NCBI RefSeq assembly: GCF_014202225.1
Contig: NZ_JACHGE010000004.1
Location: 124,001-188,000 of the forward strand
Direction of reading: 5' to 3'
Source of the DNA: Algibacter amylolyticus
GTDB taxonomy: Bacteria; Bacteroidota; Bacteroidia; Flavobacteriales; Flavobacteriaceae
DNA: 64,000 bases
This document shows, piece by piece, positions 41,521 through 56,109 of the stretch. A model generated the notes under the pieces. It had not been told where the DNA came from and made no database searches. It saw only the letters and a program-made list of their open reading frames with translations. The stretch's first letter is position 1; every line of letters begins with the position of its first letter. The translations under genes and the position numbers were made by a program.

Positions 41521-41755
41521 AAACTCTTATATATGAACTTATATTCCCTTTTTCAATTTTGATAAGTTTCGCTTAAAATAATTTATATTTAGCTGCAAAT
41601 TTGTAATCCCCATGCAGTTTACGACTTGACTTTGTAAAAAATTTCCGCTACCTTCGTTTAACATCAGATATAAAACATTAAAACGATTTCATATCAAGTC
41701 GTTAAACGAACCTACCAAAAACAAGTTCAACTTAACTTATACAGCAAATACACCC

Positions 41756-41843
41756 GCATTAGGGATTGTAGCGACATCCTTTTTTTGCTGCCATATATGG
41801 CAAAAAAAGATACAGCGTAAAGCCCGACCCTTGGGGAATGCCC
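41756..41843 (-). repeat. Structured dispersed repeat, copy D (altered ends, A/T central stem)
   Basis: Read on the minus strand this copy starts GGGCATTCCCC and ends CAATCCCTAATGC. The end arms are GCATT / AATGC, a G-to-A change matched by C-to-T on the partner side. The core GGGTCGGGCTTTACG is normal, but the central stem is TTTTTTTGC...CCA / TGGCAAAAAAA (41780-41808). The 435-bp rlmN-queA gap that contains it also holds the queA terminator and the decayed hairpin; nothing else is seen. Confidence 0.88.
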
Positions 41844-51775: not shown

Positions 51776-52858
51776 TTATCCGTTAATCACTTTTTCTTGA
51801 TGATTAATAGATTCCTGATGAACCGCTTTAAACATTTTCAAGATAAACTCTTCACTTAAACCATGTTGCTCACCTTCAAGTACCATTTTACCTAAAATCT
51901 CGTTCCAACGTTTAGATTGTAAAACAGCAACGTTTTTTTGCTTTTTAAGGGCACCAATGCTGTCAGAAGTTTTCATTCTCTTTCCTAATAAATCAAGAAT
52001 TTGATTATCAACAATATCAATTTGAGCTCTTAAATTATCTAAAGAACTATTGTATTCTGCCTCAGTGTTAGATTCCTTTCTAATTTTCAAATCTTTCATA
52101 ATTTGAACTAAAGTAGAAGGCGTAACCTGTTGTGCAGCATCACTCCACGCATTTTCAGGATCGTAGTGCGTTTCAATCATTAAACCATCAAAATTCAAAT
52201 CTAAAGCCGTTTGCGATACATCAAAAATCATATCTCTTTTTCCTGTAATATGCGACGGATCGTTAATTAAAGGAATATCAGGATATTTATTTTGAAACTC
52301 GATAGCCAATTGCCATTCTGGAGTATTTCTATATTTCGTTTTTTCGTAAGTAGAAAAACCTCTGTGTATTGCACCAATATTTTTAACACCAGCCGTATAA
52401 ATTCTTTCAATACCACCTAACCATAAAGCTAAATCTGGATTTACTGGATTTTTAATTAATACAGGTTTATCAGTACCTTTTAAAGCATCAGCAATTTCTT
52501 GCATAATAAAAGGAGACACTGTAGAACGTGCACCAATCCATAATAAATCAATATCATGCTCTAAAGCCAATTTTACATGAGCCGCATTAGCAACCTCCGT
52601 ACACACTTTCATACCTGTTTCAGCCTTTACTTTTTGTAACCATTTCAAACCTAAAGCACCAACACCTTCAAACATTCCAGGTCTAGTTCTTGGTTTCCAA
52701 ATCCCAGCTCTAAAATAGCTTACATCTGTGTCTTTCAATTCGTGAGCAATTTTTAATACTTGCTCTTCTGTTTCTGCGCTACATGGACCTGCAATTACTA
52801 ACGGATGATCTAAATTTAAATCATCTAACCAGGTTCTCATTTTTTTTGTGTTTTCCAT
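51776..52858 (-). CDS. Bifunctional DAHP synthase / chorismate mutase (type II)
   Basis: This 360-residue enzyme joins the first step of aromatic synthesis with chorismate mutase. The N-terminal domain (about 1-265) is the KDO8P-like DAHP synthase, with PLVIAGPCSAETEEQV, RAGIWKPRTRPG, WIGARSTVSPF, KNPVNPDL and IHRGFSTYEK. The C-terminal 90 residues are an AroQ-type mutase (LRAQIDIVDNQILDLLGKRM). Fusion of the two is a known feedback device: prephenate acts via the mutase part. It is the last gene of the Phe/Tyr operon. Confidence 0.95.
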   Translation of the reverse strand: MENTKKMRTWLDDLNLDHPLVIAGPCSAETEEQVLKIAHELKDTDVSYFRAGIWKPRTRPGMFEGVGALGLKWLQKVKAETGMKVCTEVANAAHVKLALEHDIDLLWIGARSTVSPFIMQEIADALKGTDKPVLIKNPVNPDLALWLGGIERIYTAGVKNIGAIHRGFSTYEKTKYRNTPEWQLAIEFQNKYPDIPLINDPSHITGKRDMIFDVSQTALDLNFDGLMIETHYDPENAWSDAAQQVTPSTLVQIMKDLKIRKESNTEAEYNSSLDNLRAQIDIVDNQILDLLGKRMKTSDSIGALKKQKNVAVLQSKRWNEILGKMVLEGEQHGLSEEFILKMFKAVHQESINHQEKVING

Positions 52859-52930
52859 TTTTACTTAATATTTAGCTGCTTAAGCTATTTCATTTACTAT
52901 TTATTTTGTACTCTTTTATTCTCTTCTATT

Positions 52931-53016
52931 GGGCGTTACCACAAGGGTCGGGCTTTCACTACTCGCTCCCTCCTAAAAAGTCGGGGAGCTCAAACATGCC
53001 GTTCAATCCCTAACGC
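52931..53016 (+). repeat. Structured dispersed repeat, copy F
   Basis: This 86 bp copy runs from GGGCGTTACC to AATCCCTAACGC (GCGTTA 52933-52938 with TAACGC 53011-53016). The central stem is GCTCCC / GGGGAGC and the closing side CAAACATGCCGTTCAATCCC matches copy B. It sits inside the Phe/Tyr operon between tyrA and the DAHP synthase gene, so it would be transcribed within that mRNA. Confidence 0.9.
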
Positions 53017-53051
53017 GGGCACATCCGTAAACTTTAGTCTTCTAACCTCCT

Positions 53052-53903
53052 TTAAACAATCCCGTTCAATATATCTTTAATGCGATTAGTATTTTGCATC
53101 TCATTAAAAATCTCGTCAAAGTTATCACTTTTCATTAACTCCTTAAAATGCGTCAAATTGTTTATATATTCCTCTAACGTTTCAACAACATTATCTTTAT
53201 TCTGGTTAAAAATTGGTGTCCACATTTCGGGCGAACTTTTAGCCAAACGCACCGTAGATGCAAATCCACTTCCTGCCATATCAAAAATATCGCGCTCATT
53301 ACGTTCCTTATCAATAACCGTTTTACCTAGCATAAACGAACTAATATGCGATAAATGCGATACATAAGCAATGTGCTTATCATGGTCCTTTGGGTTCATA
53401 TAACGAATGCGCATACCAATATCTGTAAACAACTTTAATGCTTTTTCCTGCAGCTTAAATGTTGTTTTTTCAACCTCACATACAATATTAGTTTTCCCTA
53501 TAAACAAACCTTCAATAGCCGCTGTTGGTCCAGAGTGTTCTGTTCCTGCAATAGGATGCATCGCTAAAAAGTTACGACGTTTTGGGTGGTTTTCAACCAC
53601 TTTACAAATAGCTTCTTTAGTAGAACCTGCATCAACCACTAAACCAGTATCAGATATTTTATCTAAAATGGTTGGTAGCAATTTAACAGTAGCATCCACC
53701 GGAATAGACACGATAACCAAATCGGCATTTCCTAGATCGTCTAAAGTTGCTTTTTTATCAATTAAACCGAGTTCCAAGGCTTTTTCTAGTGTGGCATCTT
53801 TTCTACTAATACCATGAATAATCGCATCCGGATTATGCTTTTTGATATCAATAGCAAGACTACCTCCAATTAAACCTACTCCTATGGCGTATATATTTTT
53901 CAT
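53052..53903 (-). CDS. tyrA: Prephenate dehydrogenase
   Basis: I start at 53903 (283 residues), which gives MKNIYAIGVGLIGGSLA, the NAD-binding Rossmann loop right at the N-terminus. HPIAGTEHSGPTAAIEGLF holds the catalytic His, and VSHLSHISSFML and MAGSGFASTVRLAKSSPEMW are the standard later blocks. It converts prephenate to hydroxyphenylpyruvate for tyrosine. It starts one base after the aminotransferase stop, so they are coupled. No ACT or mutase domain is attached. Confidence 0.95.
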   Translation of the reverse strand: MKNIYAIGVGLIGGSLAIDIKKHNPDAIIHGISRKDATLEKALELGLIDKKATLDDLGNADLVIVSIPVDATVKLLPTILDKISDTGLVVDAGSTKEAICKVVENHPKRRNFLAMHPIAGTEHSGPTAAIEGLFIGKTNIVCEVEKTTFKLQEKALKLFTDIGMRIRYMNPKDHDKHIAYVSHLSHISSFMLGKTVIDKERNERDIFDMAGSGFASTVRLAKSSPEMWTPIFNQNKDNVVETLEEYINNLTHFKELMKSDNFDEIFNEMQNTNRIKDILNGIV

Positions 53904-53904
53904 A

Positions 53905-55050
53905 CTACTTAACACGTGCTATAGCTTCTTCTAAAACTTCGGTCGATGCGCATAAAGAAAACCTAATATAACCTTCGCCTTTGGTTCCAAAAATAGTTCC
54001 TGGCGTTATAAAAATATGGTTCTCTTTTAATACTAAATCAATAAACTCTTCAGCCTTTAAATACGCAGGTAATTTTGCCCAAACAAAAAGTCCTGTTGCT
54101 TCCTTATCGTAAGTACAATTTAAGGCATCGGCTAATTGCCAAACTAAATCTCTACGCTCTTTGTACACATTGTTTAAAGTTGCAAACCACATGCTAGAAC
54201 ATTTTAAAGCCTCAATAGCGCCCTTTTGTATGCCGTAAAACATACCAGAATCCATATTACTTTTTACCTTTAATATATTACTAATATGCTCGCTAGATCC
54301 TAAAACCATTCCTACACGCCATCCGGCCATATTAAAGGTTTTACTTAAAGAGTTTAACTCTAAACACACATCTTTTGCGCCTTCAACATTTAAAATACTT
54401 TTAGGGGCGTCGTTTAAAATAAAACTATAAGGATTATCATTAACTATTAAAATATTATGACGCTTACCAAATGCTACTAACTCTTCAAAAACATATTTTG
54501 TAGGTTTTGCACCTGTTGGCATATGCGGATAATTAACCCACATTATTTTAACTTTACTTAAATCTTGGCTTTCTAAAGCTTTAAAATCTGGCATCCAATT
54601 ATTCGCTTCATCCAACTCGTAAAGCACACCTTTAGCACCTACCAATTTTGTAACCGATTGGTATGTTGGGTATCCAGGGTTAGGAATTAAAACTTCATCG
54701 CCTTCATTTAAGTAGGCCATAGATATATGCATGATACCTTCCTTACTTCCCATTAATGGTAAAACCTCTGTACTTGGACTAATATTTACCGAAAACTGAG
54801 TTTTATAAAAACGCGATATGGCATCTCTAAGTTCTGGTAATCCTTGATAACTCTGGTATTTATGAGCTATTGGATTTTCAAAACTTGCAGAAATAGCAGA
54901 TAATACCTTTTTTGGTGGTTGTAAATCTGGACTCCCAATACCTAGGTTTATAACAGGTTTTCCGTTTGCAATAAGCAAGTTTACTTCTCTTAATTTTTTC
55001 GAAAAGTAATATTCTTCAACCGTTTGTAACCTTTTAGCTGGTTCAATCAT
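53905..55050 (-). CDS. Class I/II aminotransferase of the Phe/Tyr operon
   Basis: This 381-residue PLP enzyme has the fold-type I marks: VINLGIGSPDLQPP, NPGYPTYQSV, MWVNYPHMPTGA, VNDNPYSFIL and the PLP lysine in NSLSKTFNMAGWRVGM. In this operon it probably transaminates phenylpyruvate and hydroxyphenylpyruvate, the last step to Phe and Tyr. It overlaps the pheA stop by 4 bp. Family alone could also fit aspartate or LL-DAP aminotransferase; context favours the aromatic role. Confidence 0.9.
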   Translation of the reverse strand: MIEPAKRLQTVEEYYFSKKLREVNLLIANGKPVINLGIGSPDLQPPKKVLSAISASFENPIAHKYQSYQGLPELRDAISRFYKTQFSVNISPSTEVLPLMGSKEGIMHISMAYLNEGDEVLIPNPGYPTYQSVTKLVGAKGVLYELDEANNWMPDFKALESQDLSKVKIMWVNYPHMPTGAKPTKYVFEELVAFGKRHNILIVNDNPYSFILNDAPKSILNVEGAKDVCLELNSLSKTFNMAGWRVGMVLGSSEHISNILKVKSNMDSGMFYGIQKGAIEALKCSSMWFATLNNVYKERRDLVWQLADALNCTYDKEATGLFVWAKLPAYLKAEEFIDLVLKENHIFITPGTIFGTKGEGYIRFSLCASTEVLEEAIARVK

Positions 55051-55874
55051 ATCTTGGCATTTTTATATTCTCCTAACACTTTAAAATCGTCGCCCATAAT
55101 GTCAATTACAGATTTTGCTTTTTTAAAGTCTAAATAATTTTCAAAAGTTACATCCACAAAAAACGCATACTTCCATGGGGTTTCTACAATGGGTAAGGAT
55201 TGAATTTTTGTTAAATTCAGCTTACAATCGCTCATTACATTTAAAATAGTAGCGAGACTCCCTCGTTTATGGTTCGCTTCAAATTTAACCGAAGCTTTAT
55301 TTATTTCACTTTCTAATACCTCAGCATTTTTGCGCTTTACAATTACAAAACGAGTTTCGTTATGCTTAATGGTTTGTATGCTATGTGCTAAAATATCTAA
55401 CTCAAAAATTTCGGCTGCTTTAACACTAGCAATAGCACCAATTCCTGATATATTTTTTTCTTGTATACGTCGCGCTACCTCGGCAGTATCTTTATCTTCA
55501 ACCAGTTTAATATGCGGATATTGCTTAAAAAACTCTTTACATTGTAACAAGGCCATTGGGTGTGAATACACTTCCTTAATATCTGCAATATTTTGATTTG
55601 GCAACACCATTAAATTATGCTGTATATCCAAATAATGCTCACCAACAATATGTAAACCATACTTATCAATTAATGCATAATTAGGAATTATAGAACCCGC
55701 AATAGAATTCTCTAAAGCCATAATGGCAGCATCACATTCCTTAGTAATTAAAGCGTCTACAACTCTATCAAAAGTCATGCACTCTATAACATCTACAGGG
55801 TTACTAAAAAACTCCTGCGACACAATGTGATGAAAAGATCCTATTACACCTTGTATGGCTACTTTGTTTATCAA
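55047..55874 (-). CDS. pheA: Prephenate dehydratase
   Basis: This 275-residue enzyme makes phenylpyruvate from prephenate. The catalytic domain (1-185) has NKVAIQGVIGSFHHIVSQEFF, AIMALENSIAGSI, YSHPMALLQCKEFF and NETRFVIVK, where Thr and Arg are catalytic. A C-terminal ACT domain (about 200-270, HKRGSLATILNVMSDCKLNLTKIQSLPI) should bind Phe for feedback. It is the first gene of the operon and lies behind a leader peptide and terminator that form an attenuator (55933-56109). Confidence 0.96.
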   Translation of the reverse strand: MINKVAIQGVIGSFHHIVSQEFFSNPVDVIECMTFDRVVDALITKECDAAIMALENSIAGSIIPNYALIDKYGLHIVGEHYLDIQHNLMVLPNQNIADIKEVYSHPMALLQCKEFFKQYPHIKLVEDKDTAEVARRIQEKNISGIGAIASVKAAEIFELDILAHSIQTIKHNETRFVIVKRKNAEVLESEINKASVKFEANHKRGSLATILNVMSDCKLNLTKIQSLPIVETPWKYAFFVDVTFENYLDFKKAKSVIDIMGDDFKVLGEYKNAKI

Positions 55875-55932: not shown

Positions 55933-55961
55933 AAAAAAAAGTCTCGATTTTCATCGAGACT
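55933..55961 (-). terminator. Attenuator terminator in the pheA leader
   Basis: On the minus strand AGTCTCGAT pairs with ATCGAGACT (9 bp, 4-base loop), followed by eight T residues. It lies 59 bp before the pheA start, inside the leader, not at a gene end, so it should stop transcription before the operon. Its first arm GTCTCG can instead pair with CGAGAC inside the leader peptide frame (complement of 55999-56004), giving an antiterminator. Confidence 0.88.
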
Positions 55962-55985
55962 CATATTTTAATTTATACCTATAAA

Positions 55986-56069
55986 TTATACATACAGCGT
56001 CTCGTTTCTTTTGCTAAAAAAGAAATAGAAATAGTTGCTAAAATATGTATAACCTGTTGTCATTGTCAT
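55986..56069 (-). CDS. pheL: Phe/Tyr leader peptide of the pheA operon
   Basis: This 27-codon frame starts ATG at 56069 and stops TAA at 55986. Residues 7-18 read YTYFSNYFYFFF, nine aromatic out of twelve; in all there are five Tyr and five Phe. Downstream codons spell SKRNETLYV, and their DNA carries the CGAGAC segment that is complementary to the terminator arm. Stalling at Tyr or Phe codons would free this segment and prevent termination; translation to the stop would cover it. It fits the classical amino-acid attenuation model for the pheA-aminotransferase-tyrA-DAHP synthase operon. A second in-frame ATG (56063) is possible. The gene symbol follows the E. coli analogue by role, not homology. 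Confidence 0.85.
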   Translation of the reverse strand: MTMTTGYTYFSNYFYFFFSKRNETLYV

Positions 56070-56079
56070 AATTGAGTGG

Positions 56080-56109
56080 CTAAAGTAATTAATTATTTAA
56101 GAAATCAAA
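56080..56109 (-). promoter_or_regulatory. Promoter of the pheA leader transcript
   Basis: On the minus strand TTTG (complement of 56106-56109) and TACTTTAG (complement of 56080-56087, one mismatch) are 18 bases apart. Transcription would start around 56074, only a few bases before the leader ATG. Confidence 0.55.

Follow-up and report, generated by a model that had tools for sequence, protein, structure and literature searches.

Does the short region upstream of pheA in Algibacter amylolyticus act as a switch on the operon behind it and, if so, by which mechanism and in response to which amino acids? We addressed this question on a 64-kb stretch of the genome, termed the window below, and on the corresponding loci of related bacteria. 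The pheA product of the window is 98% identical to that of locus L011, which places the host near Algibacter pectinivorans. The genes behind the region were assigned by domain matches:

51776-52858, minus strand: DAHP synthase-chorismate mutase (PF00793+PF01817)
53052-53915, minus strand: tyrA, prephenate dehydrogenase (PF02153, PF20463)
53905-55050, minus strand: class I/II aminotransferase (PF00155)
55047-55874, minus strand: pheA, prephenate dehydratase (PF00800), TTG start at 55874, the first gene after the terminator

A first reading of the DNA, made from the letters alone (the sequence-only reading), had named the same four genes as one operon, and the domain matches agree with it; the DAHP synthase-chorismate mutase gene would be on the same transcript as tyrA despite a gap of 193 nt. 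This operon content agrees with the amino acids that the leader codons described below would read. The gene next to the pheA locus in divergent orientation is gldA. Within the 193-nt gap that follows tyrA (52859-53051, minus strand) we noticed a structured-looking stretch, GCCCGCGTTAGGG ... GGTAACGCCC; a search for a second attenuator in this gap gave no Rfam match at E≤1. Elsewhere in the window, at 41748-41833 on the plus strand, lies a Flavo-1 RNA (Rfam RF01705, 60.3 bits), for which the passage concerned in PMC9723704 reports that no clear function was found.

Between gldA and pheA, the following parts can be read on the minus strand:

56109-56080, minus strand: promoter TTTG-N18-TACTTTAG of Bacteroidota type (TTTG at 56109-56106, TACTTTAG at 56087-56080), read from the sequence
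56069-55986, minus strand: leader ORF MTMTTGYTYFSNYFYFFFSKRNETLYV with its stop codon, 27 codons, ATG at 56069, read from the sequence; it holds the aromatic regulatory codons
56043-56055, minus strand: segment 1 (AGGTTATACATAT, leader codons 5-9), which can pair with 55995-55983
55999-56004, minus strand: segment 2 (CGAGAC), in the leader frame, starting 14 nt 3′ of where the last Phe codon begins
55953-55960, minus strand: segment 3 (GTCTCGAT), first terminator arm, which can also pair with segment 2
55941-55948, minus strand: segment 4 (ATCGAGAC), second terminator arm
55933-55940, minus strand: T8 tract of the predicted intrinsic terminator, read from the sequence

All four parts that the sequence-only reading had described, namely promoter, leader, in-frame CGAGAC and terminator, are directly legible at these coordinates and in this order. 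The 27-codon leader carries the aromatic core YTYFSNYFYFFF, with nine aromatics in twelve residues. The terminator hairpin has the form GTCTCGAT-GAAA-ATCGAGAC (55960-55941) and runs into the T8 tract, so that a predicted intrinsic terminator stands between the leader and the first gene, as expected of an attenuator. Since CGAGAC is also the core of the second terminator arm, the GTCTCG of the first arm is able to pair with either. For the RNA 56078-55930, the folding energy is –31.8 kcal/mol compared with –20.1 in shuffled sequences (z = –3.6), and 2 of 200 shuffles were as low. We propose that the element is a classical ribosome-mediated transcription attenuator, a reading to which we assign a probability of about 0.92. 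It is backed here by the parts themselves, their conservation, the covariation of the 2:3 and 3:4 helices, the distance from the regulatory codons to segment 2, and selection at the aromatic codons.

AT-rich DNA is rich in Tyr and Phe codons, and we therefore measured the background rate of aromatic ORFs. The background set comprised 905,396 nt, searched on both strands, from the window and 80 further loci (L011-L090), every one of which holds pheA; ORFs with an ATG start and a length of 10 to about 61 codons were counted. At least eight aromatics in 12 residues were found in 82 ORFs of this set, 81 of them the pheA leader, one per sequence, while the single other ORF, in L058, has no terminator. 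Demanding at least seven aromatics together with a terminator likewise gave 82 ORFs, of which 81 are the pheA leader, and the window holds no ORF with at least seven aromatics besides this leader. When the genome was searched for another copy of the switch with one letter pattern of segments 2-3-4, which would miss copies with other letters, only the pheA locus matched. The arrangement of leader and terminator is not a product of chance.

The loci used for comparison were the best matches to the pheA of the window, supplemented by sets of 80, 20 and 20 regions picked among the matches listed. Leaders were accepted with at least five aromatics in 12 residues for the close and family counts, for part of the class and other-class counts and for the further 20 regions, and with at least six elsewhere. 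In the close set, 118 loci were reduced to 90 distinct upstream regions by removal of identical ones, and leader and terminator are present in all 90. They were also found in 79 of 80 further, more divergent genomes of the family (pheA 64-82% identical). The conserved aromatic leader and terminator that the sequence-only reading had proposed to look for in Flavobacteriaceae thus exist. L162 (G022) is the sole exception among these 80 genomes. By eye, a tandem array of units of about 100 nt occupies the place of the attenuator upstream of its pheA.

At the level of the order, 24 of 29 loci pass the rule of at least six aromatics, four of the 29 (L199, L200, L201 and L203) being genomes counted before. 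Three loci of this sample (L216-L218) have weaker leaders, the tails of which match their own terminators by eye, and no element was found in two of the 29 (L221 and L224). At the level of the class, 12 of 25 loci pass, and two more (L232 and L238) carry five aromatics, giving 14 of 25. Among the further 20 chosen regions, the element was found in all three of family f9 and in all seven genomes drawn from a further six families of the class (the 2:3 match of L322 being weak), and it was not found in families f5 (0/7) and f16 (0/3). In other classes, one scan of 20 genomes detected no element; overall, 3 of 23 genomes are positive (L285, L287 and L288), with a 2:3 match of only 4 bp in L287, and the element therefore looks rare outside the class in the sample examined. 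Because the sampling started from the best pheA matches, the counts for class and phylum are weighted towards closer relatives.

An attenuator requires that the antiterminator and the terminator compete for the same arm. The 2:3 helix was scored as the best ungapped helix that the first terminator arm can form with the sequence lying between the last aromatic codon and the terminator, in 52 representative elements less than 80% alike. The score was 19.4 for arms with their own leaders, 13.7 for arms combined with other leaders and 11.2 with shuffled leaders. None of 20,000 permutations reached the sum of the own pairs, and 48 of the 52 elements are individually significant (p≤0.05); the permutation test leaves shared ancestry in, and the shuffle p-values are uncorrected. 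The own leader is the best or tied-best match for just 12 of the 52 arms, because relatives share a pair type. The pair types include CGAGAC/GTCTCG, CGGGAC/GTCCCG and CAGGACT/AGTCCTG as well as GTTAGGATTGT/ACAATCCTGAT, AGCGAGGCTTT/AAAGCCTCGTT, TGAAGCGGGA/TCCCGCTTCA and AGAGCGGTC/GACCGCTTT. We preferred this permutation of matched arms to a covariance model since the identity of the segments differs between clades and the permutation promised to discriminate more sharply.

An alignment of 79 sequences (MAFFT) was also evaluated column by column. The 3:4 helix is paired in 98.7% of the cells, with double changes in all eight pairs. The 2:3 helix is paired in 80.2% of the cells compared with 74.9% in shuffles, and it shows 43 double-changed cells compared with 18.9, a value reached in 0 of 500 shuffles. 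Two of the five alignment measures are ordinary for 2:3 (number of pairs with double changes, 30/500; number of pair types, 271/500), in part because leaders of the CGGGAC type fall one MAFFT column out of register, a shift that depresses the values for 2:3. Compensatory changes, which the sequence-only reading had suggested searching for in the CGAGAC/GTCTCG and terminator stems, are thus found in both. The predicted antiterminator would be mutually exclusive with the terminator, as it takes up the first terminator arm. For the 1:2 hairpin, the window shows a 13-nt match (shuffle p = 0.003), and across the 52 representatives the own pairs score 17.4 compared with 14.3 (0/20,000 permutations), with only 16 of 52 individually at p≤0.05. 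This hairpin may form, on weaker evidence than the other two helices.

That the conserved pairing is internal to the RNA and covaries also bears on another possible role, in which the terminated leader RNA would chiefly be a small RNA acting in trans. Attenuation would indeed yield a terminated RNA of about 140 nt each time, and a function in trans would be compatible with attenuation rather than exclude it. As the chief role it is extremely unlikely, given where the pairing partners lie. A terminator/antiterminator switch is in principle also compatible with several kinds of sensor, such as a T-box, a riboswitch or a protein, next to which the small ORF would be incidental. A PyrR-site match is present, at 29.2 bits below the cut-off of 54. 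At the site, every Rfam family stays below its cut-off, the ten matches listed at E≤10 include no T-box, and no T-box covariance match at gathering score was obtained in the window. Such a sensor would also leave the selection at the aromatic codons and the constant distance from these codons to segment 2 (see below) without a role, and we consider it very improbable.

Counted from the first base of the last aromatic codon, the distance to the start of segment 2 is 8-16 nt in 187 of 188 elements, with 103 elements at the mode of 14 nt; the loci of family f77 span a wider range than this main set, from 10 to 21 nt. Relative to the leader stop codon, by comparison, the start of segment 2 varies in the 188 elements between 27 nt 5′ and 8 nt 3′ of it. 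Judged by the size of the ribosome footprint, a distance of 8-16 nt would place segment 2 about where the front edge of a ribosome lies that has stalled on the last aromatic codon. The regulatory codons are therefore placed such that segment 2 would be left free under a stalled ribosome, as attenuation demands. The leaders of L037, L053, L055, L061 and L142 end right after FFFS or FFFR, and in such short-leader loci (e.g., L055 and L142) segment 2 is kept 3′ of the stop codon, its spacing to the aromatic run unchanged.

The 180 distinct leaders contain on average 5.3 Phe, 3.8 Tyr and 0.6 Trp residues. Trp codons occur in 106 of them, chiefly in columns with Tyr or Phe elsewhere. We compared the aromatic codons of nearest leaders over all columns. 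Single-base differences were synonymous in 90 cases, exchanged one aromatic residue for another in 73 and led to or from a non-aromatic residue in 42, whereas mutation alone would predict 11%, 11% and 77%, respectively. Aromaticity is hence kept in 163 of 205 single-base codon differences, compared with about 23% expected. Among two- and three-base differences over all columns, 42 exchanged one aromatic residue for another, while a non-aromatic residue was involved in 45. A first count (68 synonymous, 56 aromatic, 10 non-aromatic) was dropped because it covered only columns at least 80% aromatic, which favoured the claim. As far as the aligned leaders allow us to judge, selection seems to act on the aromatic nature of a residue more than on which aromatic it is. 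This codon selection argues that the leader is translated, with runs of codons for the products of the operon, as in known attenuators. Since Trp often replaces Tyr or Phe, the element probably senses aromatic supply in general. The sequence-only reading had called it a Phe/Tyr attenuator: the attenuator part is supported, and the specificity is better described as aromatic.

A conserved peptide core and selection on its codons could also be expected if the ORF encoded a genuine small aromatic-rich protein, perhaps a membrane protein, and the hairpin were merely its terminator. In that case, one would not expect leaders to stop after FFFS or FFFR while segment 2 survives; the residues past the aromatic run are not kept, and the tail of the leader changes in step with the terminator arm. 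A small protein as the function of the ORF is therefore hardly credible.

Under attenuation, the start of transcription, the behavior of the ribosome, termination and the response to amino acids would be as follows. RNA polymerase would start a few bases 5′ of the leader ORF, with a ribosome following it. With ample charged aromatic tRNAs, the ribosome would pass the FYFFF codons, reach the stop codon and cover segment 2 (CGAGAC); segment 3 would then be free to pair with segment 4, and transcription would end before pheA. If Phe- or Tyr-tRNA (or, in many relatives, Trp-tRNA) were scarce, the ribosome would stall in the aromatic run just short of segment 2. Segments 2 and 3 would then pair before segment 4 is made, no terminator would form, and the operon would be read.

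Masked folding is consistent with this order of events. With segment 4 not yet made, the mean probability of 2:3 pairing over 188 elements is 0.95 under a stalled-ribosome mask compared with 0.64 without a ribosome; for the window, the values are 0.99 and 0.83. As 2:3 already reaches 0.83 without a ribosome there, protection by the 1:2 hairpin appears weak in the window. The value of about 0 for a ribosome at the stop codon arises by construction where segment 2 is masked and is not counted as evidence. Once segment 4 is present, the minimum-energy fold of the stalled RNA is the terminator and not 2:3, so antitermination would have to be kinetic.

The region in front of the leader points to a short distance between promoter and ORF. 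The promoter at 56080-56109 agrees with the Bacteroidota consensus, and transcription would start shortly before the leader ATG. Only 10 nt separate the –7 box TACTTTAG from the leader ATG in the window, and the 5′ untranslated region is thus probably very short. Of 188 non-identical elements, 174 have a TAnnTT[TAG]G box in the 75 nt preceding the leader ATG, where shuffles predict 26, and in 162 the box stands 8-24 nt before the ATG, where shuffles predict 6; among the 174, an 18-nt spacer separates the box from a TTTG-like one in 123. In L118, an extra small ORF (ATGAAACATCCAACAACG...) and an inverted repeat were seen by eye between the promoter and the aromatic leader.

In family f77, the aromatic cassette can be doubled. 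At least one cassette was found in 28 of 30 loci, and 14 of the 30 carry two in series before pheA (L252, L254, L255, L258, L261, L262, L265, L267, L269, L271, L272, L274, L275 and L279). The 2:3 match is individually significant in 18 of these 28 serial cassettes, and in both cassettes in 5 of the 14 loci. The second leader begins 1-48 nt beyond the first terminator. In each of the 14 loci, a TAnnTT[TAG]G box stands 5′ of the first leader and the stretch from the first terminator to the second leader is free of such boxes; both cassettes are therefore probably on one transcript. Our search of the open literature found no paper on tandem ribosome-mediated leader attenuators.

A similar design precedes hisG in the window's own genome. 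At this separate locus (L283, G000:C3), a leader MTFIQLHHHFHICSQAK is followed by a strong terminator, and by eye CTCAAGCG can pair with CGTTTGAG of a terminator arm. This candidate his operon attenuator differs from the pheA element in that it would sense His.

Parts of this picture have precedents. A 2021 study of Flavobacterium psychrophilum (PMC9723704) described a structured 5′ element in front of pheA that also occurs in other genera and has no Rfam hit, and the same paper separately mentions “strong clues” for attenuation by leader peptides at amino-acid operons. The F. psychrophilum pheA element is very probably the one analyzed here; the section devoted to it presents neither a leader sequence nor an alternative pairing or covariation. 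Leader-like small ORFs are mentioned in a passage on Bacteroides thetaiotaomicron (PMC7366714), and the relevant passages of PMC4833913 and PMC2965389 do not describe the pheA element. A fuller account of the pheA attenuator was not found in the open literature; subscription papers were mostly outside this scope, and the attenuation survey of Lopatovskaya et al. 2010 (Mol Biol) may hold cases from Bacteroidetes. The suggestion of the sequence-only reading that the element might be undescribed hence stands for its anatomy and covariation, while its presence 5′ of pheA had been reported. What is new here is the anatomy of the element, the comparative proof, its presence in several other families of the class and its serial doubling in f77.

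A covariation-supported attenuator in 79 of 80 family genomes and in other families offers a handle on the regulation of amino-acid genes in Bacteroidota, and the doubled form of f77 makes serial control testable. In this phylum, translation generally starts without Shine-Dalgarno pairing, and the element is a natural test of whether ribosomes closely trail RNA polymerase in bacteria with such starts. Taking all observations together, one attenuator, probably old within the class, might control pheA in many families of Bacteroidota, read the pooled supply of Phe, Tyr and Trp from leaders that lie near the 5′ end of the RNA and are independent of Shine-Dalgarno sequences, and act in one family, in doubled form, as two serial aromatic checkpoints. 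We give this joint reading an even chance; if true, transcription and translation would have to be closely coupled in these bacteria.

The mechanism itself is classical, and attenuation of this kind is already known. The attenuators of enterobacterial pheA (pheL), trp and his combine a leader rich in codons for the product with a 2:3 antiterminator that competes with a 3:4 terminator, and the position of the stalled ribosome decides between them. At the site studied here, the Rfam model Phe_leader (RF01859) scores 18.6 bits compared with a cut-off of 55 (E = 1), which places the element outside that family. It resembles the enterobacterial systems in its leader of product codons and its alternative 2:3 and 3:4 helices. 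It differs from them in the mixed Phe, Tyr and Trp codons, in an ATG 10 nt from a Bacteroidota-type –7 box, in a segment 2 that lies in or just after the leader ORF, and in its weak 1:2 hairpin.
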